This document shows positions 38,168-49,022 of a stretch of 64,000 nucleotides of DNA, in pieces. Location: assembly GCA_026005175.1 (NCBI GenBank), contig BPKO01000008.1:1-64000 (forward strand). Direction: 5' to 3'. Every line of letters begins with the position of its first letter. Position 1 is the first letter of the stretch. Source of the DNA: Candidatus Tectimicrobiota bacterium. Lineage in GTDB: Bacteria > Tectomicrobia > Entotheonellia > Entotheonellales > Entotheonellaceae. A program made the translations under genes and the position numbers. A model generated the notes under the pieces. The model made no database searches. It saw only the letters and a list, made by a program, of their open reading frames with translations, and was not told the DNA's origin.

Positions 38168-39343
38168 CTAGCCGTGCAGGTGGAAGAAGTCCACGGCGTT
38201 GCCAGCCCAGATGCGGTCGCGCTCGGCGGCCGGCACGTCGGCGTAGAGGCGCGCGAGCACCGCGCGGCTGTTGGGCCACTCGCACTCGATGTGGGGGAAG
38301 TCGGTGGCAAACAGGATGTGGTCCACCCCCAGGTGGTGGCGCAGCTCGATGGCCACCCGCTCGTACTGCACGCTCCAGTAGATGTGCTGGCGGGCGTACG
38401 TGCTGGGCAGCTCCTTGAGGCGCTGGAAGCCCAGGTACTGCTCGGCCCAGGGCAGGTGGCGCTGGTACCAGAGGTCGGCGCTCTCTAGCCAGAAAGGCAC
38501 CCAGCCCAGGCGGGTTTCGGCAAAAAAGACGCGCAGCGCCGGGAAGCGGTCGAAGACGCCGGCCAGGATGAGCTGGGTGACGCTGAGCGCCGGCGGCAGG
38601 CCGAAGTGGGCCACCCACTCGAGGAAGGGGCGGCGCAGGCGGCGCATGACTTCCGGGGGCTCCTTGGGGTAGCGAAAAGTGGGCTGGGTGGCGCGCGGCC
38701 CGGTGCGGTTGAAGCCCACGTGCACGGTGACGGGCATTTGCACGTCGAGGGCCGCCGCCCAGAAGCGGTCGTCGGCCGGGGTGGGGTAGCCCTGGCCGCT
38801 GGGCAGCACGCCGAGCACCACGCCTTTGAGGCCCTGGCGCGCGCAGTGGTGCAGCTCGGCCACCGCATCCTCGACGTTGGTCCACGGGATCACCCCCAGG
38901 CCGAGCAGGCGCTCGGGGGCCACGGCGCAGTACTCCTCGGCCAGCCAGTCGTTGTAGGCGCGGATGACGGCGCGGTAGACTTCGTCGTGGCTGATGCTGC
39001 GCCACAGCCCCGGGCCGGCGACCATGGCAGGGAAGAGGACTTCGGCGTCGAGGCCATCCATCTCCTGCTCGCGCACGCGCTGCTCGGGCGAGCCGGTGCC
39101 GGCGGTGTCCTCGATGCGCAGGCCAAAAGGCTGCCACTGGCCTTCCGGGCGGCCGGCGCGCAGGTCGAGGAAAAAGGCCTCCTGCAGCGGCTGGCCCTCG
39201 ATGAGGATGGCGTCGCCGCCGTCGGGCAGGCGCACGGTGCGCGGGGCGCGGTCGCGGTAGGGCTTGGGCACGCGGGAGGTCCAGCGCTCGGGAAGCACTT
39301 CCAGGTGCCCGTCGCTGGAGATGAGGCGATAGGTGCGGGCCAT
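38168..39343 (-). CDS. Amidohydrolase-family protein (PF04909 type)
   Basis: A 391-residue TIM-barrel metal-dependent hydrolase or decarboxylase. The first metal motif is SSDGHLEVLPE, the Asp-x-His variant seen in many PF04909 members instead of His-x-His. Later elements are MPVTVHVGFNRTG, VFFAETRLGWVPFWLE and HILFATDFPHIECEWPN, whose final Asp is the usual catalytic or metal residue. The family includes ACMSD-like decarboxylases and aromatic-acid enzymes. It is transcribed away from the cupin gene at 39418, with 74 bases between the starts. Confidence 0.88.
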   Translation of the reverse strand: MARTYRLISSDGHLEVLPERWTSRVPKPYRDRAPRTVRLPDGGDAILIEGQPLQEAFFLDLRAGRPEGQWQPFGLRIEDTAGTGSPEQRVREQEMDGLDAEVLFPAMVAGPGLWRSISHDEVYRAVIRAYNDWLAEEYCAVAPERLLGLGVIPWTNVEDAVAELHHCARQGLKGVVLGVLPSGQGYPTPADDRFWAAALDVQMPVTVHVGFNRTGPRATQPTFRYPKEPPEVMRRLRRPFLEWVAHFGLPPALSVTQLILAGVFDRFPALRVFFAETRLGWVPFWLESADLWYQRHLPWAEQYLGFQRLKELPSTYARQHIYWSVQYERVAIELRHHLGVDHILFATDFPHIECEWPNSRAVLARLYADVPAAERDRIWAGNAVDFFHLHG

Positions 39344-39417
39344 GGCGTCTCTCCTCTCTGGACAGCACCCGCCAGCCTACGCCATGTGGGCCGCAAAGGC
39401 AAGGGGAGGAAAGGAAG

Positions 39418-39690
39418 ATGGACGAAGCGGCAATTCGGCGCGACTGGGCACAGCGGGGCTTTAGCTGCGAGGTGTGGAGCGACCCGCCGGGGCGGGCGTG
39501 GGAGAACTTTGTCCACGACGTCGACGAGCTGCTGATGCTCGTTGCCGGCGAGCTGGAAGTGGCGCTTCCCGACCGCACCTGGCGGCCGCGCCCTGGCGAA
39601 GAAGTGTGGATTCCGGCCGGGGTGCGCCACAGCGTGCGCAACGTCGGCTCCACCCCCAACCGCTGGCTCTACGGCTACCGGCGGCGCTGA
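39418..39690 (+). CDS. Small cupin-domain protein
   Basis: A 90-residue single cupin barrel: VHDVDELLMLVAGELEVALP, RPRPGEEVWIPAGVRHSV and a terminal YGYRRR. The cupin motifs are partly degenerate but retain the GEEVWIPAGVRH core with the usual histidine. GGAGGAAAGGAAG sits just upstream. Divergent from the amidohydrolase gene, it may be a functional partner or a small isomerase/sensor. Confidence 0.85.
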   Translation: MDEAAIRRDWAQRGFSCEVWSDPPGRAWENFVHDVDELLMLVAGELEVALPDRTWRPRPGEEVWIPAGVRHSVRNVGSTPNRWLYGYRRR

Positions 39691-39795
39691 GCCCGGCAGC
39701 GCCGCTGGATCGAGCAGTGCTTTCAGAGCCTGAAGCATATGCTCGCCACGGAGGCCCGCCAGGGGAAGCGTGAGTCAGATTCAACGCCAGGGTAG
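39691..39795 (+). pseudogene. Possible transposase C-terminal fragment
   Basis: Immediately after the cupin stop a short frame reads RRWIEQCFQSLKHMLATEAR before its stop. The WIEQCFQSLKH segment resembles the region around the last catalytic glutamate of DDE transposases. Only about 30 residues remain. It marks the left edge of a low-GC accessory patch. Confidence 0.35.
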
Positions 39796-39820
39796 GTGAA
39801 GCTCCTCCACCTAAGCCGCT

Positions 39821-40087
39821 TCACGGAAAGTAGCGGTAGATTTCGCTTCTATGCAGGATTCTGACAAAGATGACTGTATCTCCTTCTATGATCAAACCTA
39901 TTCTGTAGTCTCCAAGTCTGATGCGATAGTAGCGACCTTCCGTCCTGAGCTTTTTGAGGTCTTTTATTTCACGAATACTCGTGGCTGCTTCGACGTCATT
40001 GATTGTCTCCTTGACTCGCCGGAGCAGAGGCTTGTCCCGGATCCGCTTGAGGTCCTTAGCAAAGCTAGCCCTAAACTCTAGCTTCAC
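39821..40087 (-). CDS. RelE/ParE-type toxin
   Basis: An 88-residue basic protein: MKLEFRASFAKDLKRIRDKP, then DLKKLRTEGRYYRIRLGDYR and IGLIIEGDTVIFVRILHRSE with final IYRYFP. This is the RelE/ParE fold with the KL...YYRIRLGDYRI core conserved. It would inhibit translation or gyrase when unbound. Base composition is clearly lower in GC than the flanking genes, suggesting acquisition. Its ATG overlaps the antitoxin stop by four bases. Confidence 0.88.
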   Translation of the reverse strand: MKLEFRASFAKDLKRIRDKPLLRRVKETINDVEAATSIREIKDLKKLRTEGRYYRIRLGDYRIGLIIEGDTVIFVRILHRSEIYRYFP

Positions 40088-40293
40088 GTTTGATCTTCTA
40101 GAAGCTCGGAAATGTCTTGCCTGCTCACCGGCTCTGTCCCTTCCCCTTCTCGGATTGCACGAGCCAGTGCAATGTCCTCTATGACCTCGGCAAGCAGCTC
40201 GTAGAGTACGTCTTTTCGCTCTTCGATGACTTCTATAAGAGTTTCTTTCAGCAATTCTTTGAGTCTGCCTTCGTTAATAAGCGCCTCCATCAT
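40084..40293 (-). CDS. Antitoxin partner of the RelE/ParE toxin
   Basis: A 69-residue acidic protein (ELLKETLIEVIEERKDVLYE, then AIREGEGTEPVSRQDISELL) that overlaps the toxin gene. Size, charge and gene order fit an antitoxin of the kind common in cyanobacteria and other mobile TA loci. GGAGAG precedes the ATG at 40293. Confidence 0.75.
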   Translation of the reverse strand: MMEALINEGRLKELLKETLIEVIEERKDVLYELLAEVIEDIALARAIREGEGTEPVSRQDISELLEDQT

Positions 40294-40928
40294 TTACTCT
40301 CCAAATTCTGTTGACAGCCATTTCCTTCTTTCTCCAAGGACCATAGCCAGACTACGGAATCCGTGTTTTCCTGCCTCTTCGGAGGTTAAGATGGAACCCG
40401 TCGAGTTCACTTAAGGAGTGATATTTACGGGAATCTTTCGTATTCCCGTACAAATTCTATTGGCGGAATGCCCACGGAGCGTCCGTCAGCGACAACAATA
40501 GGCGAAGGCTGAAACGCTGTCAAGCTCTCTGGGAAGAACGAGGATGCCTACCGCCTTGATCTGTCAAGCACGACCACCCGCGGGGCAACGCTGTGGCAGG
40601 GGTCTCAGGCGCGCACCTCCTCTTCAGGCACCAGCACCGCCGGCCGCGCATCGCTCAATCCCGGAGTGGCTGGAAGCGGGTGTGAAGGCTGTAGGCCATT
40701 GCCTGAGGCGAGATATTAGGCCAAGCTCGTGTTTCACGATTCAAGACCTGACCCCCATCCCTCTTGCAGCGCCGCCGCAGCTGGTCTACGATCTGGTCGT
40801 GATCCGTGGCATACCTCCGGTTGAAAACAATAACGCGCATGGACACGCCATAGACCGCTTCTTATTGAGGGCGCCTTGGCGCTTTGAACTCTGAGAACAA
40901 CTCCCAGTGAGTGTCAGGAGATATGGAC
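40294..40928. other. Gene-poor low-GC stretch with a duplicated scrap of the RND gene
   Basis: I see no convincing gene. A nine-pair hairpin TACGGGAAT-ctttcgt-ATTCCCGTA lies at 40426-40450. 40541-40648 is an imperfect copy of 41597-41712, the 3' end of the RND gene and its flank; the best part is 40591-40648. The frame open at 40544-40894 has no recognisable start signals or protein features. Confidence 0.6.
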
Positions 40929-41195
40929 ATGAAAAGCCATTACAAGCCGAAACTGCTTGGGCGTTATATCGTGGCTGACCCTAAGATTTGTCACGGTCAG
41001 CCAACTTTTCGGGGGACTCGTATCTTCGTCGCAGATGTTCTCGACCAGGTTGCCAGCGGCATGGCCTGGGAGGCCATCATCGAAGAATGGAATGGGAGTA
41101 TCACCAAAGAAGCCATCACTGAGGCTGTTCAACTGGCGCTTCAAGCTCTGCTCAGGCACGCTGACGAGTTCGTCCTGGAGCCGAGGACGCCGTGA
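40929..41195 (+). CDS. DUF433-domain protein, likely antitoxin
   Basis: An 88-residue protein with the DUF433 core DPKICHGQPTFRGTRIFVAD and VLDQVASGMAWEAIIEEW, a fold that binds DNA as part of toxin-antitoxin pairs with DUF5615 PIN-like toxins. The ATG at 40929 is eight bases after AGGAG; an ATG six bases earlier is too close. The following toxin frame overlaps its stop (GTGA, 41192-41195). Confidence 0.87.
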   Translation: MKSHYKPKLLGRYIVADPKICHGQPTFRGTRIFVADVLDQVASGMAWEAIIEEWNGSITKEAITEAVQLALQALLRHADEFVLEPRTP

Positions 41196-41511
41196 ATATC
41201 TTAGACGAAAATATTCCTGCAAGTCAGCGTCAGTTGTTGAAAGGCTGGCGGGTTCGGGTTCGTCAGATTGGGTACGACATCGGACGAAAGGGGATGCAGG
41301 ACAACAAAGTCTATGTCACAATCGATATTGTCTAGTGAGTCTTGCTGTCGATAAGAACGAAGCCGCGTTTTTTGTGCGCCGCCTGCTTCGTCACCCGGAG
41401 TTTAACACAAACGCGAAGCGAAGGGGCGCCGTCATTCGCGTTTCAGGAAAGGGGCTTTGGGTATGGCGATTGCACGCAGAGGAGGAGAGATTCTTCGAGT
41501 GGGTGGAATAG
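41192..41511 (+). pseudogene. Decayed DUF5615 PIN-like toxin
   Basis: Begins with GTG and MNILDENIPASQRQLLKGWR followed by IGYDIGRKGMQDN, the start of a DUF5615 toxin. The frame then breaks (stop at about 41335), and the C-terminal part continues in another frame as RYCLVSLAVDKNEAAFFVRR and GKGLWVWRLHAEEERFFEWV. The middle, which should hold a catalytic aspartate segment, is missing, so this looks like an internal deletion plus frame change rather than a single indel. The toxin is probably dead. Confidence 0.75.
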
Positions 41512-41596
41512 GCGGCAGAGAATATCCAGAGGTCCGGCGTCTAACGGGCTTTGGCGCAGCCGCTCCACAACAGGACGATCTATGCCTCTCTCGGCC

Positions 41597-41712
41597 AGGA
41601 TCTTCCTGCCGCCTCGATCTGTCGGGCATAATTACCTAAGGAGCGGCACTGCGGCAGGGGCCTCAGGCGCGCACCTCCTCTTCGGGCTCGCCCACCAGCA
41701 CCGCCGGCCGCG
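41597..41712. repeat. Source copy of a duplicated segment at the RND gene 3' end
   Basis: 41649-41712 matches 40591-40648 with few differences (CTGCGGCAGGGGCCTCAGGC against CTGTGGCAGGGGTCTCAGGC, then a shared GCGCACCTCCTCTTC). Weaker similarity extends left to 41597 and 40541. The approximately 950 bases between the copies carry the DUF433 pair. Confidence 0.7.
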
Positions 41713-44700
41713 GCCGCACCCGCCGCAGGCGCCCCCGCAGCCAGGCTTCGGCTTCCAGCCACAGGGAAAAGACGGTAGGCACCAGCACCAGCGTAAACAG
41801 CGTGGAAAGCAGCAGGCCGCCAAGCTGCACGGCGCCCATGCCGCGGTAAAGCTCGGAGCCAGCGCCACTGGCCAGCACCAGGGGCAGAAAGCCCAGCAGG
41901 CTGCTGGCGGTCATGAAAATGGGGCGCAGGCGGTCGCGGGCGCTTTCGATGATGGCCTCTTGCGGCGGCATGCCGGCCCGCATGTGGTTGAGCGCTTGCT
42001 CGACCAGCAAAATGGCGGCGTTGACCACGATGCCGGCCATGATGATAAAGCCAAGCATGGCCAGCACGTCCAGCTTCACGGTGGGCTCTACGGCGTGCAG
42101 CAGGCGCAGGCCGAGGACGCCCCCTACCAGGGCCGGCGGCAGGCTGAAAAGAATGACCAAGGGGTACGTAAAGGACTCGTACAGCGAGCACATGAGCAGG
42201 TACGTGATGACCACCGCCAGGAGGAACGACCCCTTGAGGGAATCCCAGGTGCGGTCGAGGTCCCGGGCCTGACCGCTCACCTCCAGGCTGTAGCCCAGGG
42301 GCAGGCGCTGCCGCAGCGGCCGCAAGACCCGAGCTTCGAGCAAGTCAATGGCACTCTGCAAGGCCACCTCGTCTTTCAGGTTCACGGTGAGCCGGATGGC
42401 CCGCATCCGATCCTGGTGCTCGATGCGCGTGGGTCCTTCGGCCTCGCGGAGGGTAGCGATGTCGGTCAGGCGCACCGGACCGCCGTGGGGCGGGTAAAGC
42501 AGGATCTGGTCGAGGGTCTGCGAACGCACCGTGCCCCGCGGTGCCCCCAGCAGGGTGAGGTCGAGCTCCTTGCCGTGCTCGCGGAAGGTGCCGGCCAGGG
42601 TGCCGGCCAGAAAGGTCTCTACAATGTAGCCCACGTCGCTTACCGAGAGGCCCAGCGCCGCGGCTTTTTCCCGATCCACGTCGACGTGCAGCTCGGGATT
42701 GCCCCATTCAAAGCTCGAGCGCACGAAGTTGACCCCGGGCAGCTCGCGGGTTTGCTGCTCAATGGTGGCCGCCAAGTGGCGCACCGTCTCTAGGTCGTTG
42801 CCTTTGACGTCCACGTCCAGGTTGGTGCCACCCAGCAGCTGGCCGCGGCGGCGAAACAGCGACGCCTGGGTGATAAAGACGGCGCGCGTGCCGGGGACGC
42901 CACCGGCGCGCCGGCGCAGCTCGGCGATCACCTGCTGCATGCCGCGGATATCGGCATACTCGGGCTTGACGATGATGCCAAGCAGGGGATTTTCGGTGCG
43001 CACCACGGTAAACAGGCGCTGGATCTGGGGCAGCTGGGCGAAGCGGCCCTCGAGCTCGACGAGCAGGCGCTCGATCTGCGCCAGGTTGTACCCGGGCGGC
43101 ACCTGCACCACGGCCAGGATGAGGTTGCGGTTGCCCTTGGGCAGGTAATCGAGCGGCGGCAGGAAGAGCCAGGCCAGGGCCAGGGCGCCGCCGGTCATTC
43201 CCCCCACCAGCAGCAGGCGCCGCAGCACACCCCGGCGCAGCCAGGTGAGCAGGCCAAGCAGCGCCGCGCTGAAGGCCCGCCCCAACCAGGCCAGCAGCAG
43301 CACGTCGAGCAGGCGCTGCCCGCGGCCCGAAGCTGCAGGCGCCGCCACGCGCAGCACGCGCGCCGCCATCATCGGCACGATGGTGAGGGCCACCACGAGC
43401 GACAGGGCCGTAGAAATCGAAGTGGCGATGGCGATGTCGCGAAAGAGCTGGCCGGCTTCGTCTTTGACGAAAAGGATCGGCATGAACACCGCCAGGTTGG
43501 TCAGCGTTGAGGCCAGAATCGCCCCCCACACTTCCCGCGCCCCGTCGAGTGCCGCCTGCACGCGCGACTTGCCGCGCTCGCGGTGGCGGAAGATGTTTTC
43601 CAGCACCACGATAGAGTTGTCGACCACGTTGCCCACGGCAAAGGCGAGGCCAGCGAGCATGACGATGTTGAGGCTGCGCCCCAGGGCGTCAAGCACCACA
43701 AAGGTGGTGATCACCGACACCGGAATCGACAGGCCGATGACCAGCAGGCTGCTGGGGCTGCGCAGGAAAAAGAGCAGCACCATAACGGTAAGCAGCGACG
43801 CCCACAGCAGGTTGTCGGTAACCAGGTGAAGGGCGTCGTAGATGTAGTCCGTCTCGTCGTAGACTTGCTGCAGGCGGATGTCCTTGTCGGCATAGAGGGC
43901 GTTGAGGTGGGCGATTTCTGCCTTCAGCCGGCGCATCACCTCGATGGTGTTGGCCCCCGTGCGGCGCACCACGCCAAAGCCCAGGGTGGGCTTGCCGAAC
44001 TGGCGAATGAGCCGGGTGGGGTCCTTGTAGCCAAACTGCACCCGGGCGATGTCGCGCAGGTAAACGGGGTTGCCGTCCTGCCAGGCGACGATGACCTGCT
44101 CGATTTGCTGCAAGTCGGTAAACTGCCCCACGGTGCGCACCAAGTGGCGCTTTTTGCCCTCGTCGAGGGTGCCGCCTTTGAGGTTGCGATTTTCGCGCAG
44201 CAGGGCGTCGCGCACCTGGTCCACGCGCAGGCCTCGCGCTGCCATGGCCGCGTAGTCAAGGATCACCTGCACTTCGCGTTCCTGGCCGCCAAAGAGCCAC
44301 ACCGCCCCTACGCCTTCGAGGCGCTCGAGGCGCGGCTTGATGACGTCTTCGGCTTCCTCGCGCACTTCGTTGATGTCGCGGGAGGTGTGGACGATGATCC
44401 AGGCAATGGGCGTCTCTTCGTCTGAGGAAACGGCGCGAATCACCGGCCGCTCGGCGTCAGGGGGCAAGTCGCGCACCATGTCGAGCTTTTCCGACACCTC
44501 GAGGCGGGCCACGTCTTTGTTGACGCCCCAGTCAAAGCGCAGCACGATGACGCCGCGGCCCTCGTACGAAGTCGATTCCATCTCGCGCAGGTTTTGCACC
44601 GAGGTGAGGCGCTCTTCCTGGCGGTCGACGATTTCGTGCTCCACTTCCTGCGGGGCCGCGCCTTCGTAAACGGTTTCGACGGAGATCTCCGGGCGCTCGA

Positions 44701-44818
44701 CGGTGGGCGTCATCTGCATGGGCAGGCGCTGCAGGGCCAGGATGCCAAAGAGCAGCGCCAGGATGACGCCGACGACGACCGTCACCGGGTAGCGGATGCA
44801 GAAGGCAATCAGTGACAT
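41663..44818 (-). CDS. RND-family efflux permease
   Basis: A 1051-residue inner-membrane proton-driven pump with the two-fold RND layout (12 membrane segments, two large periplasmic loops). It starts MSLIAFCIRYPVTVVVGVIL; AAAGGA lies nine bases before this ATG, while an in-frame ATG nine bases upstream is too close. The proton-relay segment in TM4 is FAVGNVVDNSIVVLENIFRH: the first Asp of the AcrB pair is kept and the second is Asn. The sequence is closer to the drug/hydrophobe (HAE) group than to CusA-type metal pumps, as far as can be judged by eye. It is the last gene of a six-gene operon under an ECF promoter. No outer-membrane factor gene is adjacent. Confidence 0.92.
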   Translation of the reverse strand: MSLIAFCIRYPVTVVVGVILALLFGILALQRLPMQMTPTVERPEISVETVYEGAAPQEVEHEIVDRQEERLTSVQNLREMESTSYEGRGVIVLRFDWGVNKDVARLEVSEKLDMVRDLPPDAERPVIRAVSSDEETPIAWIIVHTSRDINEVREEAEDVIKPRLERLEGVGAVWLFGGQEREVQVILDYAAMAARGLRVDQVRDALLRENRNLKGGTLDEGKKRHLVRTVGQFTDLQQIEQVIVAWQDGNPVYLRDIARVQFGYKDPTRLIRQFGKPTLGFGVVRRTGANTIEVMRRLKAEIAHLNALYADKDIRLQQVYDETDYIYDALHLVTDNLLWASLLTVMVLLFFLRSPSSLLVIGLSIPVSVITTFVVLDALGRSLNIVMLAGLAFAVGNVVDNSIVVLENIFRHRERGKSRVQAALDGAREVWGAILASTLTNLAVFMPILFVKDEAGQLFRDIAIATSISTALSLVVALTIVPMMAARVLRVAAPAASGRGQRLLDVLLLAWLGRAFSAALLGLLTWLRRGVLRRLLLVGGMTGGALALAWLFLPPLDYLPKGNRNLILAVVQVPPGYNLAQIERLLVELEGRFAQLPQIQRLFTVVRTENPLLGIIVKPEYADIRGMQQVIAELRRRAGGVPGTRAVFITQASLFRRRGQLLGGTNLDVDVKGNDLETVRHLAATIEQQTRELPGVNFVRSSFEWGNPELHVDVDREKAAALGLSVSDVGYIVETFLAGTLAGTFREHGKELDLTLLGAPRGTVRSQTLDQILLYPPHGGPVRLTDIATLREAEGPTRIEHQDRMRAIRLTVNLKDEVALQSAIDLLEARVLRPLRQRLPLGYSLEVSGQARDLDRTWDSLKGSFLLAVVITYLLMCSLYESFTYPLVILFSLPPALVGGVLGLRLLHAVEPTVKLDVLAMLGFIIMAGIVVNAAILLVEQALNHMRAGMPPQEAIIESARDRLRPIFMTASSLLGFLPLVLASGAGSELYRGMGAVQLGGLLLSTLFTLVLVPTVFSLWLEAEAWLRGRLRRVRPRPAVLVGEPEEEVRA

Positions 44819-44831
44819 AGGCGGCATTCCT

Positions 44832-46073
44832 TTAGCGGGCGGCGGGCTCGCGCACCTCTACCGGCGTCTGATCCCGCAGCGTTTCGTTGCCGGTCACCAC
44901 CACACGGTCCCCGGGCTTGAGCGCGCCCTGCAGGACCTCCACCCGTTCTCCTACGGCACGGCCCGTCTCGACGGGAACGCGGCGGGCGGTTTGGGCCTCC
45001 ACCACGAACACCACCGTCTGGCCTGCCTGCCGCACCACGGCGTCTTTGGGCACCAGCACCGCCGGCCGCAGCTCGCCCAGGCGCAGGCGCACGCGCGCCG
45101 ACATGCCGGCTTTGAGGGCGGCGTCGGGCGTGTTGGGCACCTCGATTTTCACCGGAAAGGTGCGGCTGGCCGGGTCGGCCTGCGGAATGATCTGCTGGAC
45201 GTGCCCGCGAAACGTCTGCCCGGGAAAGGCGTCCAGCACCACCTCCGCCGGGTCGCCCTGGCGCAGGCGGGCCACGTCTTTTTCGTGTACCGGCACGCGC
45301 ACCAGCACGCGCCGCAAGTCGACGAGTTCCGCCACCGGGCCGCCGCGCTCGACCCACTGCCCGACTTCGGTGTAAAGGCGGGTGACAAAGCCGGCAAAGG
45401 GGGCGCGAATCGCCGTCTTCTCGACATCGGCCCGCAGCCGCTGCACGCGCGCCTGCAAGCGGCGCACCTCGGCCTCGGCCGCTGCCAGATCTTCGGGCCG
45501 CGTGCCCAGCTCGGCCACACGCAGCGCCTGGCGTGCCCGCTCGTACTGCGCCTGGGCAGCGCGGTAGGTGCTCTCTGCCAGCTCGTAGTCGGCAGTGCTG
45601 GCGATCTGGCGCGCTTGCAGCGCCCGCAGGCGTTCCAGGTCCTTGGCGTACTTTTCCACCCAGGCGCGGCGCTCGGCGACTTCGGCGCGCTTTTCCTCGA
45701 TTTCCTCTGGCCGCAGGCCGCGGCGCAGCTTTGCGGCGGTGGCCTGGGCACGGGCCAGCTCGGCCTCGGCTTCGGCCAGGGCGAGCTCGAGGTCGGTGGC
45801 TTTGAGCTGCACCACCACCGCGGTGTCGCCGGCCACGGCCTCGCCCTCGCGCAGCGGCACGCGCAGGGCGAGGCCGGCAATCTCGCTGCTGAGGGTGGTG
45901 CGCCGCAGCGGCTCCACCGTGCCCACCACTTCGATGTGCGCCGCCACCGGCTGCACCACCACCGGCTGCACCACCACCGGCACGCGCCGGGGCTGTGCCT
46001 GCCCGGCGGGCGCCACGAGCACGGCCAGGCTCAACAGCACGGCCAGGCAGCAGCGCTCAGCGCGGCGGCGCAT
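44832..46073 (-). CDS. RND efflux periplasmic adaptor subunit (membrane fusion protein)
   Basis: A 413-residue adaptor that links the pump to an outer-membrane channel. It has a signal peptide (CCLAVLLSLAVLVAPAGQA), a barrel-sandwich/lipoyl half EVVGTVEPLRRTTLSSEIAG, a long alpha-helical hairpin (about residues 100-215), then the returning half TAIRAPFAGFVTRLYTEVGQ and beta-barrel and membrane-proximal domains. The reading is intact. It starts 17 bases inside the upstream Spy-like gene and ends 13 bases before the pump start. Confidence 0.93.
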   Translation of the reverse strand: MRRRAERCCLAVLLSLAVLVAPAGQAQPRRVPVVVQPVVVQPVAAHIEVVGTVEPLRRTTLSSEIAGLALRVPLREGEAVAGDTAVVVQLKATDLELALAEAEAELARAQATAAKLRRGLRPEEIEEKRAEVAERRAWVEKYAKDLERLRALQARQIASTADYELAESTYRAAQAQYERARQALRVAELGTRPEDLAAAEAEVRRLQARVQRLRADVEKTAIRAPFAGFVTRLYTEVGQWVERGGPVAELVDLRRVLVRVPVHEKDVARLRQGDPAEVVLDAFPGQTFRGHVQQIIPQADPASRTFPVKIEVPNTPDAALKAGMSARVRLRLGELRPAVLVPKDAVVRQAGQTVVFVVEAQTARRVPVETGRAVGERVEVLQGALKPGDRVVVTGNETLRDQTPVEVREPAAR

Positions 46074-46536
46074 CGGGCATTTCCTCCCTTGCTGCCTCGT
46101 GGCGCTGCCAGAGCTCGACCAGGGCGCGGCGCTGCTGCGGGGTTAGCAAGGCGCGCATGCGCAGCAGGGTGCGCAGCCGCAGCTTCCACTTCTCTAGCTT
46201 CAGGGCGCCGATCACTTCCGCTTGCCGCAGCACTTCGGTTTCGTCCGGGTCGTCCTGCTCGAGCAGCTGGCGCAGGCGGCTGTAAGCGGCGTGCAGCTCC
46301 TGGCGCAGCTCGGCCTCCCTGGTCCGCGCGGCAGCAGCCAGCTGACGCAGGGTGGCCAGGGTCTCTTCTTCCACGCCCAGCTGTGCGGCGTGCTCGGCGA
46401 GCCAATCGGCGGGCAGCCACGACCGCCGCGGCTCCCCGGCCCAGGCGCCGGCGGCCAGCAGCGCGCCCCCAAGCAAGGCGATCAGGAGACGCCTGGCGGC
46501 CCGCACCGGCCCTTCCTTCCCTACCCGACGGCTCAC
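46057..46536 (-). CDS. Spy/CpxP-like periplasmic protein, second copy
   Basis: A 159-residue exported helical protein: signal region LLIALLGGALLAAGAWAG, then long amphipathic helices including ELRQELHAAYSRLRQLLEQD and LRTLLRMRALLTPQQRRALV. The LTPQQRRAL segment is the LTxxQ-type motif of Spy, CpxP, ZraP and CnrX relatives. It is a paralogue of the protein at 47542-47988. Its ATG overlaps the anti-sigma stop by four bases. It may sense metals or misfolded protein and pass the signal to the anti-sigma factor (inference from Cnr-type systems). Confidence 0.82.
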   Translation of the reverse strand: MSRRVGKEGPVRAARRLLIALLGGALLAAGAWAGEPRRSWLPADWLAEHAAQLGVEEETLATLRQLAAAARTREAELRQELHAAYSRLRQLLEQDDPDETEVLRQAEVIGALKLEKWKLRLRTLLRMRALLTPQQRRALVELWQRHEAAREEMPDAPPR

Positions 46537-46919
46537 GGCTGCGCCTCAGTCCAGGGGCGGTCCAGAAACACCTGCGCCAGCACCCGATACTCCGCAGGCA
46601 AGACGGCGCTTTCTTCCTCTGCCAGGGCGTCTTCCAGCACCGCCTGCAGCAGGGGCATGGCGTCGCTTCTTGTTTCTGCGGGCGGCAGCCGTTCCCCGGG
46701 GTGGCCGGAAAAGAGGAGCCAGAGGAGGGCTGCGGCAGCGGCGGCACCGGCGGGCAGCAGCCGGCGCCGGCGGCGGCGCCGCTGCAAGCGCGCCCATACC
46801 GCAGCGTCAAATGCGGCACGGCGGGCCGCCGAAAGCGGCGGCGGAGCAAAGTGGCGCGCCAGGCGCCCGACAAAGGCCTGCTCGGCAGGCTGCAGCCTGT
46901 CGTCCTGGGGAGCGTTCAT
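46533..46919 (-). CDS. Probable anti-sigma factor, single-pass membrane protein
   Basis: A 128-residue protein with a cytoplasmic N-terminal part (RLQPAEQAFVGRLARHFAPP), a stop-transfer arginine run and one membrane segment LLPAGAAAAAALLWLLFSG (about 54-72), then a short periplasmic tail. It does not show the zinc ZAS motif. Position right after the ECF sigma gene, four-base overlap with it and with the Spy-like gene behind, and topology fit a sigma-sequestering membrane protein like CnrY or RseA. Confidence 0.72.
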   Translation of the reverse strand: MNAPQDDRLQPAEQAFVGRLARHFAPPPLSAARRAAFDAAVWARLQRRRRRRRLLPAGAAAAAALLWLLFSGHPGERLPPAETRSDAMPLLQAVLEDALAEEESAVLPAEYRVLAQVFLDRPWTEAQP

Positions 46920-47482
46920 GGGGCTTGTCCTCCCGTGTCGTCGGCCAGATCGGCCAGCTCCTGGCGCAGCAGCCGCAGGGCTCGGTGCAGGTGGCTCTTC
47001 ACCGTGCCCTCGGGCTTGGCCATCACCTGGGCCGCTTCGCGCACGCTGAAGCCCTCGAGGTGGACGAGGACAAAGGCAGTGCGCTGGCTAGGGCTGAGGC
47101 GCCCCAAGGCGGTAGCGATGCGCCGCCGCAGCAGTGGGTCACCAGGCCCCTGCGGGGCAGCAGGCTGCTGGTCCTGTCGCCGCCAGGCGGCGCGCACCGC
47201 TTGCCAGCGCCAGTAACTCTGGGCCTGGCGTACCAGAATGCGGTAGAACCAGGTGGCCAGGCTGGCCTCTTCCCGGAAGCGATCCAAGGCGCGGTAGGCC
47301 TTAACAAAGGCTTCCTGGGCCACGTCCTCGGCAGCCGCCGCATCGCCCCCGACCAGGCGCCAGGCCAGGCGCCAGGCCCGCTCCCGGTAAGCCACCACAA
47401 AAGCGCGGAAGCGGGCGTCACGTTCTGCCTCCCTCACCGTGCCCACCCGGGCTGCCGGCGCATGCGCCACCCTCCCTGCCAT
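46916..47482 (-). CDS. ECF-type RNA polymerase sigma factor
   Basis: A 188-residue sigma-70 family protein without regions 1 and 3. Region 2 is AYRERAWRLAWRLVGGDAAA with EDVAQEAFVKAYRALDRFRE and TWFYRILV; region 4 is LSPSQRTAFVLVHLEGFSVR with KPEGTVKSHLHRALRLLRQE. I place the start at the ATG 47482, though a GTG six codons upstream is in frame and neither has a strong ribosome-binding site. It probably drives its own operon through the promoter at 48030-48060. Confidence 0.88.
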   Translation of the reverse strand: MAGRVAHAPAARVGTVREAERDARFRAFVVAYRERAWRLAWRLVGGDAAAAEDVAQEAFVKAYRALDRFREEASLATWFYRILVRQAQSYWRWQAVRAAWRRQDQQPAAPQGPGDPLLRRRIATALGRLSPSQRTAFVLVHLEGFSVREAAQVMAKPEGTVKSHLHRALRLLRQELADLADDTGGQAP

Positions 47483-47541
47483 GGCCCCGCTGCTGCGCAC
47501 GCCGCTTTCTGCTGGCGGCGAGCCACCGCGCCGCCGGCGGC

Positions 47542-47988
47542 TCAGCGCTCGCCACCGCGGTGCCGCTCGCGGGGCTTGTGCAGCGCTTCGCGCAGGCGCG
47601 CGCGCTGCTCCGGAGTCAGTTGCGCGCGCACCGCCAGCAGCGTCCGCAGGGTCTGCTGGCGCAGCTTGGTCTGCAGCTCGCCGATGCGGTCGGCCTGGGT
47701 CAGCACGGCGCTTTCATCCGGCAGGTCCTGCTCCAGAAGCGCGCGCAGCGCCTCGTACGCCGCTCGCAGCTGCCGGCGCAGCTCGCGCTGCTCGGCCCGC
47801 GCCTTGTCGATGATCTCGTAGACGGCAGTGCGCTTTGCCTGCTCCAGGTCAAGGCCTTCCAGAGCGTGCTCGAGCCGCCACAGGAAATCGCCCCGGTGTC
47901 CCCACCCGCGGGCCGCCGCCGTTGTTGCCAGGGCGAGCCCCAGGGCGAGCAGCAGCACGACTTGTCCCATGGTACCATATCGCTTCAT
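47542..47988 (-). CDS. Spy/CpxP-like periplasmic protein, first copy
   Basis: A 148-residue exported helical protein (signal GQVVLLLALGLALATTAAA). The core AEQRELRRQLRAAYEALRAL, then LLEQDLPDESAVLTQADRIG and RTLLAVRAQLTPEQRARLRE align throughout with the second Spy-like protein of the operon. An N-terminal GWGHRGDFLWRLEH may supply metal ligands. AAGGAGG lies seven bases before the ATG. First gene of the operon, 36 bases after the -10 of an ECF-type promoter would place its mRNA start. Confidence 0.85.
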   Translation of the reverse strand: MKRYGTMGQVVLLLALGLALATTAAARGWGHRGDFLWRLEHALEGLDLEQAKRTAVYEIIDKARAEQRELRRQLRAAYEALRALLEQDLPDESAVLTQADRIGELQTKLRQQTLRTLLAVRAQLTPEQRARLREALHKPRERHRGGER

Positions 47989-48029
47989 CGGTCGCCTCCT
48001 TTGCCAGGAATGCCAAAGCGGTCGTCCCT

Positions 48030-48060
48030 TTAGACGCCGGGGGCGGCCCTGCGGGTTACC
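48030..48060 (-). promoter_or_regulatory. ECF sigma-factor promoter of the Spy/sigma/RND operon
   Basis: On the minus strand GGTAACC (48060-48054), a 17-base spacer and CGTCTAA (48036-48030), the classical AAC...CGTC form of ECF promoters. It lies about 40 bases before the first gene and is the obvious target of the sigma factor encoded two genes on, giving positive autoregulation. Confidence 0.72.
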
Positions 48061-48071
48061 TGTTATGCCGC

Positions 48072-49022
48072 TCAGGGGCCGCAGCGGCGCGCGGTGGCAA
48101 AGGCCTCGTGCACGCCGGTGACGCCAAACCCCTGCACCGTGGCGCCCCCGGGAAGGTAAATGCGGTCGCCAAGCGCCGCCGCGCCGATGCCGTGGCGCGG
48201 CGTGGGCATGGGCGGCAGCGCCTGCCAGCGGTCGTGGAAGGGGTCGTACACCTCTACCTCGGCAAAGAGGCCGTCGCTGCGCGCCGGGTTGCCCTCGCCG
48301 CCAAAGACGTAGAGGCAGCCCTGGAGCACGGCGCCGGCGATACCGCCGCGCGCTGTAGGCAGGGGCGCTTTGTGCACCCAGCGGCCCGTCGTGGGGTCAA
48401 AGGCTTCCAGCGCGTTGGTGATGCCCCGGATGCCGCCGCTGCGGCCGCCTACGGCGTAAAACGTCGTGCCCACCACGCCGGCAGCCAGGTGGTTGCGCGG
48501 CGAGGGCATGGGAGGCAGCGGCGTCCAGGTATCGGTCTGCGGGTCGTAGACGGCAAAGTCGCGCTCGCGCGGCGCAGGCGAGCCGCCAGCGGCATAGATC
48601 TTGCCGCCGATTACCCCGGCAGCAAGGGCACCGCGGGGCTGGGGCAGCGGCGCCTTGCGGTGCCAGGTGCGGGTGGCCGGGTCGTAAGCCCACACCGTGT
48701 CCACGGGGGCAAAACGTCCCCCTTGCAGGCCGCCGATGACGTAGAGGGTGCCGCTGACCACCGCGGCGGCGGCATGGTGCACCGGCACGGGCAGCGGGGT
48801 GGCAAACTGCCAGCGGTCGGTGGCCGGATCGTAGACTTCCACGGTGGCGGCGGTGCCGCCGCGGGCATCGATGCCACCGATGACGTAGATCTTGCCGGCC
48901 AAAGCGGCCACCGCCACTTCCTGGCGCGGCACTTGCAGCGGCGCCAGAGAAATCCAGGTGTCGGCCTTGGCCGGCAGGGCCACGGCCAGCGCAATCCCAA
49001 GAAGCAGCGGGCATGCCAGCAT
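48072..49022 (-). CDS. Secreted Kelch-repeat beta-propeller protein
   Basis: A 316-residue protein with signal peptide MLACPLLLGIALAVALPAKA and six Kelch repeats filling the rest. Each repeat shows a double glycine after hydrophobics and a YDP...W element, for example KIYVIGGIDARGG, VEVYDPATDRWQ, TLYVIGGLQGG, KIYAAGGSPAP, TFYAVGGRSGG and CLYVFGGEGNP. Such propellers bind sugars or proteins at the cell surface. It ends ten bases or so beyond the ECF promoter region on the same strand, so it is downstream of nothing obvious and probably has its own promoter near 49030-49180. Confidence 0.88.
   Translation of the reverse strand: MLACPLLLGIALAVALPAKADTWISLAPLQVPRQEVAVAALAGKIYVIGGIDARGGTAATVEVYDPATDRWQFATPLPVPVHHAAAAVVSGTLYVIGGLQGGRFAPVDTVWAYDPATRTWHRKAPLPQPRGALAAGVIGGKIYAAGGSPAPRERDFAVYDPQTDTWTPLPPMPSPRNHLAAGVVGTTFYAVGGRSGGIRGITNALEAFDPTTGRWVHKAPLPTARGGIAGAVLQGCLYVFGGEGNPARSDGLFAEVEVYDPFHDRWQALPPMPTPRHGIGAAALGDRIYLPGGATVQGFGVTGVHEAFATARRCGP

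Follow-up and report, generated by a model that had tools for sequence, protein, structure and literature searches.

The Cnr and Ncc systems of Cupriavidus metallidurans (CnrYXH-CBAT and NccYXH) bring together, in one co-directional cluster, an extracytoplasmic function (ECF) sigma factor, a transmembrane anti-sigma factor, a protein of the CnrX/Spy fold, and a resistance-nodulation-division (RND) efflux pump; the metal ligands of CnrX are H42, H46, E63, H119, and M123. The CpxP, Spy, and ZraP proteins share a four-helix fold, an LTPEQ motif, an apparently cleavable signal peptide, and a proposed stress-coupled chaperone or feedback role, and the partners of CpxP and ZraP are the histidine kinases CpxA and ZraS. 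SigE/RseA modules consist of an autoregulated ECF sigma factor and an anti-sigma factor with one transmembrane segment, and use a −10 element of the CGTCTAA type. Here we describe an operon that resembles each of these systems in part. It occupies minus-strand positions 47988 to 41663 of the window, the 64,000-nt stretch of contig BPKO01000008.1 (assembly GCA_026005175.1, hereafter genome G000) that was analysed. Gene calls and family models uphold the six genes, strand, and order read from the letters in the original prediction: Spy1, an ECF sigma factor, a one-transmembrane anti-sigma factor, Spy2, a periplasmic adaptor, and an RND permease, in the order of transcription (Table 1). The promoter and the three-gene core turn up in unrelated bacteria as well, which marks the operon as a genuine, though variant, representative of a widely distributed type of system.

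The sigma factor has the region 2 and region 4 domains only, with Sigma70_r2 and r4_2 above their cut-offs and the superfamily model TIGR02937 at 90.8 bits (cut-off 42.9), as expected of the ECF group. In a quick version of a sigma factor tree it clades with the Spy-linked sigma factors of genomes G234 and G258 (support 99; 62 and 54% identity, respectively). A profile built from these three sigma factors retrieved further clade members in G386 and G121. The lowest-ranking sigma matches (L306-L312, E between about 1e-33 and 1e-37) served as the negative control; their neighbourhoods contain no Spy gene, anti-sigma gene, or promoter motif. A profile scan of genome contigs with the sigma alignment returned mostly proteobacterial RpoE-like sigma factors; only the two loci from Aminicenantes proved informative. 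The start codon of the window sigma gene is uncertain, and its relatives point to an internal GTG near 47446.

The predicted ECF-type promoter ahead of Spy1 proved well supported and specific. For a motif derived from the window itself, the single exact occurrence found in its own 3.99-Mb assembly is little proof when taken alone; the relatives supply the independent evidence. GTAA[AC]C-N17-CGTC[TCG]AA is present at all five sigma-clade loci whose 5' flank is available, in three unrelated lineages, 52-88 bp upstream of the first operon gene and with an identical 17-base spacer, and it is absent before the seven next-nearest (outgroup) ECF genes. In the 6.5 Mb of sequence that was fetched, counting both strands and overlapping loci, the motif occurs only at clade loci, bar one locus that had previously been fetched through a near-motif search. 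The strict form, GTAACC-N17-CGTCTAA with at most one mismatch, matches once in G000 and once in G234, genomes of different lineages, each time before this operon, and the motif does not fall at random positions; there is no match in G258, where the promoter deviates at two positions. Given a single match each in G000 and G234, the sigma factor most likely has a single target, its own operon. Allowing two mismatches in G000 gave six further matches, the level of the reversed-pattern control, and no regulon-wide motif; a wider regulon defined by the motif was dropped, matches with up to two mismatches being at control level in this genome.

The clade loci of G234, G258, and G386 share the cassette order, and the conserved core is therefore sigma/anti-sigma/Spy. 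In G234 the genes run MarR, TolC, adaptor, RND, motif, sigma, anti-sigma, Spy, and ATGA overlaps like those of the window join the cassette genes; lying directly 3' of MarR/TolC/adaptor/RND, this cassette is tied to an RND pump independently of the window. G258 has sigma, anti-sigma, and Spy genes. One G386 locus (L304), truncated within sigma, retains anti-sigma and Spy; at the other G386 locus and at the G121 locus the contig ends soon after the anti-sigma gene. The two G386 sigma/anti-sigma cassettes (L303 and L304), similar but non-identical and both at contig ends, may be paralogues or strain variants. The anti-sigma factors are homologous within the clade. That of the window has a short cytosolic part, one transmembrane segment near residue 54, and a periplasmic tail with LPAEYRVL; it contains neither a zinc-binding motif nor cysteine, matched no Pfam or NCBIfam family, and gave no match in a profile search against the PDB. 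The tails from the window, L203, L303, L304, and L305 all retain a segment of the form LPA[ED]Y or LPDEY, which could be the place where a periplasmic partner acts.

The genes of the window operon are tightly coupled. Sigma and anti-sigma overlap by 4 nt (ATGA) and anti-sigma and Spy2 by another 4 nt (GTGA), as had been claimed, and Spy2 and the adaptor overlap by 17 nt. Besides the 4-nt gap between adaptor and RND genes, the only spaced junction is Spy1/sigma, whose length is set by the choice of the sigma start codon; a hairpin located there is no more stable than shuffled sequences (z −0.31). A sigma-70-like promoter was sought across the operon region and none was found. Upstream, a Kelch-repeat gene ends at 48072, directly followed by the promoter motif and then by the Spy1 ribosome-binding site. 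This layout is beyond chance, because the core order, the overlaps, and the promoter recur in unrelated genomes.

Table 1. Features of the ECF-Spy-RND operon (window coordinates)
Feature	Position	Strand	Basis or detail
ECF-type promoter GGTAACC-N17-CGTCTAA	48030..48060	−	−35 GTAACC 48059-48054; −10 CGTCTAA 48036-48030
Shine-Dalgarno AAAGGAGG of Spy1, strong	47995..48002	−	read from sequence
Spy1, Spy/ZraP/CnrX-like periplasmic protein, 148 aa	47542..47988	−	PF13801 2.8e-18, LTXXQ 1.6e-6
ECF sigma-70 factor	46916..47500	−	TIGR02937 90.8 bits; relatives
Anti-sigma factor, 128 aa	46533..46919	−	homologous to anti-sigmas of L203, L303, L304, L305, L237
Spy2, Spy/ZraP/CnrX-like protein, 159 aa	46057..46536	−	PF13801 5.7e-10; AlphaFold2 model; alignments
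RND periplasmic adaptor (membrane fusion protein)	44832..46073	−	RND_mfp 1.4e-64
RND efflux permease, 1054 aa	41663..44827	−	ACR_tran 736 bits

With modest confidence, we favour a model in which the operon is an autoregulated, single-target ECF module whose soluble Spy proteins would signal to the anti-sigma tail and thereby couple periplasmic stress to the efflux pump. In resting cells, sigma would be kept sequestered at the inner membrane by the anti-sigma factor. The two paralogues, Spy2 and Spy1, would act in the periplasm on the tail carrying the conserved LPxxY, with the signal presumably running from Spy to anti-sigma, and would signal the putative inducer, be it a toxicant or damaged protein. 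The freed sigma factor would then transcribe its own operon from GTAACC-N17-CGTCTAA, raising the levels of Spy1, sigma, anti-sigma, Spy2, and the adaptor/RND pump; Spy1, encoded first, may have a chaperone or feedback role, and the pump would work with an outer-membrane channel encoded elsewhere. A more specific form, offered tentatively, is chaperone titration: in place of an anchored sensor that binds metal, the soluble Spys would bind the LPxxY tail of a CnrY-like anti-sigma factor, their occupancy by client or toxicant would set sigma release, Spy1 would provide feedback, and the pump would clear the toxicant, its presumed substrate. Several points weigh against the favoured model: (i) the Spy proteins could be outputs and not sensors; (ii) the L237 anti-sigma factor has no clear LPxxY segment; (iii) the pump is not linked to the module in genomes of the same family; (iv) the motif search of the own genome found no second target promoter, leaving a wider regulon unsupported; and (v) signal peptides and anchors, here and below, were judged from N-termini by eye.

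Both Spy proteins belong to PF13801 (Metal_resist; Spy/CnrX/ZraP-like), with 66.7 bits for Spy1 and 39.9 bits for Spy2 (cut-off 29.2), so that their reading as Spy-like holds. Spy2 occupies the conserved position behind sigma/anti-sigma, and its AlphaFold2 model has a four-helix core (mean pLDDT 78) with the predicted topology of Spy/CnrX/CpxP. It aligns over nearly its full length to CpxP, CnrX, and NccX; a VIA-align Z near 10 is not decisive alone for a helical bundle, and the three are taken as relatives because almost the whole domain is covered and the profile search agrees. A search with Spy2 against plasmids gave no match. To place these proteins in a wider context, Spy-type proteins were sought in 386 genomes and 80 regions were fetched. 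A co-directional ECF sigma gene lies within 2 kb at 46 of the 80 loci, which is not an unbiased rate since the ranking favours proteins resembling the query alignment, in which many of the Spys were already sigma-linked; the contrast in strand and distance (none of the 80 on the opposite strand, one at 2 to 6 kb) is internal and sound. The orders include sigma-antisigma-Spy and sigma-antisigma-Spy-Spy. Six loci besides the window have Spy-sigma-antisigma-Spy (L060, L205, L210, L233, L258, and L266); the anti-sigma assignment at L210 is weak, no transmembrane segment having been found. With a second co-directional Spy at 21 of the 80 loci and the flanking order at these six, the proposal that two Spy-type proteins by themselves amount to a new sensing logic is not sustained. 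Efflux genes also accompany the cassette elsewhere: L242 and L265 have sigma-antisigma-Spy-adaptor-RND-RND, and L131 and L256 have adaptor, ABC transporter, and TolC genes. Among the surveyed loci, the full order Spy-sigma-antisigma-Spy-adaptor-RND is confined to the window.

The N-termini bear on how the Spy proteins act. Of the six flanking-Spy loci, five combine an anchored-looking Spy behind anti-sigma with a secreted-looking Spy before sigma. The Spy behind anti-sigma looks secreted in the window and in clade members L203, L304, and L237; both window proteins have cleavable-looking N-termini, a signal peptide in Spy1 and a sequence ending AWA-GEP in Spy2. These N-termini, together with the secreted-looking products of further ECF-linked Spy genes and of the upstream Spy genes in other Spy-sigma-antisigma-Spy loci, fit an alternative in which the Spys are effectors only, on-demand periplasmic chaperones, and the anti-sigma factor itself receives the stress through RseA-like regulated proteolysis independent of Spy. 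We consider this rather unlikely, given that Spy is translationally coupled straight behind anti-sigma in the window and in L203, and that at many other loci the Spy in the same position has an uncleaved-looking, sensor-like anchor. The survey hints at a general anchored/secreted Spy pair at the service of numerous ECF switches in different lineages. The locus is a compact, testable signalling unit, one promoter with three coupled genes, found in unrelated bacteria, and it connects Spy-type proteins, so far familiar mainly from two-component systems and nickel sensing, with ECF sigma factors generally. How such switches sense envelope damage becomes directly testable through the exact promoter, the conserved tail in the periplasm, and the division into anchored and secreted Spys. 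In the survey of L202-L281, many sigma-antisigma-Spy-Spy loci encode a first Spy with an uncleaved-looking anchor bearing an SLGLNLG-like motif, followed by a second with a typical signal peptide. A third PF13801 protein of G000 is encoded at 272888-273208 on the plus strand of contig C2 (L056, 266000-282000), about 1.5 kb from an opposite-strand ECF sigma gene with a cysteine-rich, zinc-finger-like anti-sigma factor; a P-type ATPase-like gene lies close by.

The relationship to Cnr was examined directly against the pMOL28 sequences. Like CnrY, the window anti-sigma factor is a small transmembrane protein with a similar transmembrane position and no zinc motif, but no sequence similarity between the two was detectable. 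The cnr order is anti-sigma, sensor, sigma (cnrY-cnrX-cnrH), whereas here it is sigma, anti-sigma, Spy2; the sigma factor is 29% identical to CnrH, and the pump, 26% identical to CnrA, is nearer to drug-type models. A second Spy and the lack of an outer-membrane gene further set the operon apart from Cnr/Ncc. Spy1 and Spy2 show weak but significant similarity to CnrX, in whose sequence the five ligand residues were confirmed; M123 is a metal ligand (PMC7689651). The predicted Cnr/Ncc parallel thus stands for the presence of an autoregulated ECF/anti-sigma pair, CnrX/Spy-fold proteins, and an RND pump in one operon, and fails for gene order and ligands, with no similarity to CnrY detected: the system is Cnr-like in outline, not a Cnr member on the tested features. 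A Cnr/Ncc-type metal sensor, in which Spy2 would bind a transition metal that the pump exports, would agree with the fold and overall outline, with the His and Met that pairwise alignment places in Spy2 at the H46 and M123 positions of CnrX, and with an adaptor whose CzcB/NccB score, though short of the cut-off of 319.3 at 139.7 bits, exceeds its scores on drug-type adaptor models. It is nonetheless improbable: at most one or two of the CnrX ligands are aligned in Spy1 or Spy2, H119 being replaced by Thr in both; none of 81 ECF-linked Spy sequences retains three of the five; cysteine is absent from Spy1, Spy2, and the anti-sigma factor; and the pump falls below the CusA/CzcA cut-off and scores lower there than on drug-type models.

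The window Spys have the fold, motif, and apparently cleavable signal peptide described above for CpxP, Spy, and ZraP, but go with an ECF/anti-sigma pair where CpxP and ZraP go with a histidine kinase. The operon shares autoregulation, the one-transmembrane anti-sigma factor, and the −10 type with SigE/RseA modules, and differs from them in the single target promoter found, in having Spy proteins instead of RseB, and in an anti-sigma factor without named-family similarity. A literature search, with subscription papers mostly outside its reach, found no description of this arrangement.

The best models of the permease are multidrug types (RND_permease_2 at 678.8 bits and another at 496.3 bits, below the 1250 cut-off), and CusA/CzcA (TIGR00914) gives 396.1 bits against a cut-off of 701.45, so that the heavy-metal (HME) model is not reached. 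The predicted drug-group look is therefore borne out as the nearer group for a protein that reaches no RND subfamily cut-off; its nearest solved chain is MdtB. The G234 pump is likewise nearer to multidrug-type than to CusA/CzcA models, below subfamily cut-offs. The adaptor scores 218 bits on RND_mfp (cut-off 94.9). As predicted, no outer-membrane factor gene follows in the operon; the three found in the assembly (about 77% complete) are all on contig C1. In the same family, genome G001 has a 70% identical pump with no ECF, Spy, or adaptor neighbour, and the pumps of G002 and G003, at about 40% identity, are accompanied by adaptors but by no ECF gene. Conservation of gene order therefore holds for Spy with sigma and not for Spy with the pump. 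Because same-family genomes carry related pumps without these neighbours, the link between pump and cassette is recent or lineage-specific, whereas ECF-Spy cassettes are repeatedly found linked to efflux systems. That the pump is a chance neighbour outside the control of a self-contained ECF-Spy module, as these same-family pumps and the G234 pump (which has a MarR gene of its own and lies upstream of the cassette's promoter) might suggest, is very hard to reconcile with the Spy2/adaptor overlap, the short adaptor/RND gap, the failure to find a sigma-70-like promoter in the operon, and the recurrence of sigma-antisigma-Spy-adaptor-RND in L242 and L265. The orphan permease of G001 (L055, contig C207, 8181-11387) has CheY-like and transposase-like genes upstream.

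Beyond the 3' end of the operon, two small adjacent open reading frames (88 and 69 aa) on the minus strand at 39821-40293 have, by eye, the look of a RelE/ParE-type toxin-antitoxin pair. Between this pair and the RND gene, a 94-aa open reading frame on the plus strand (40911-41195) resembles a DUF433-type antitoxin, and GC content falls to about 0.60 at 39000-42000 of the window.

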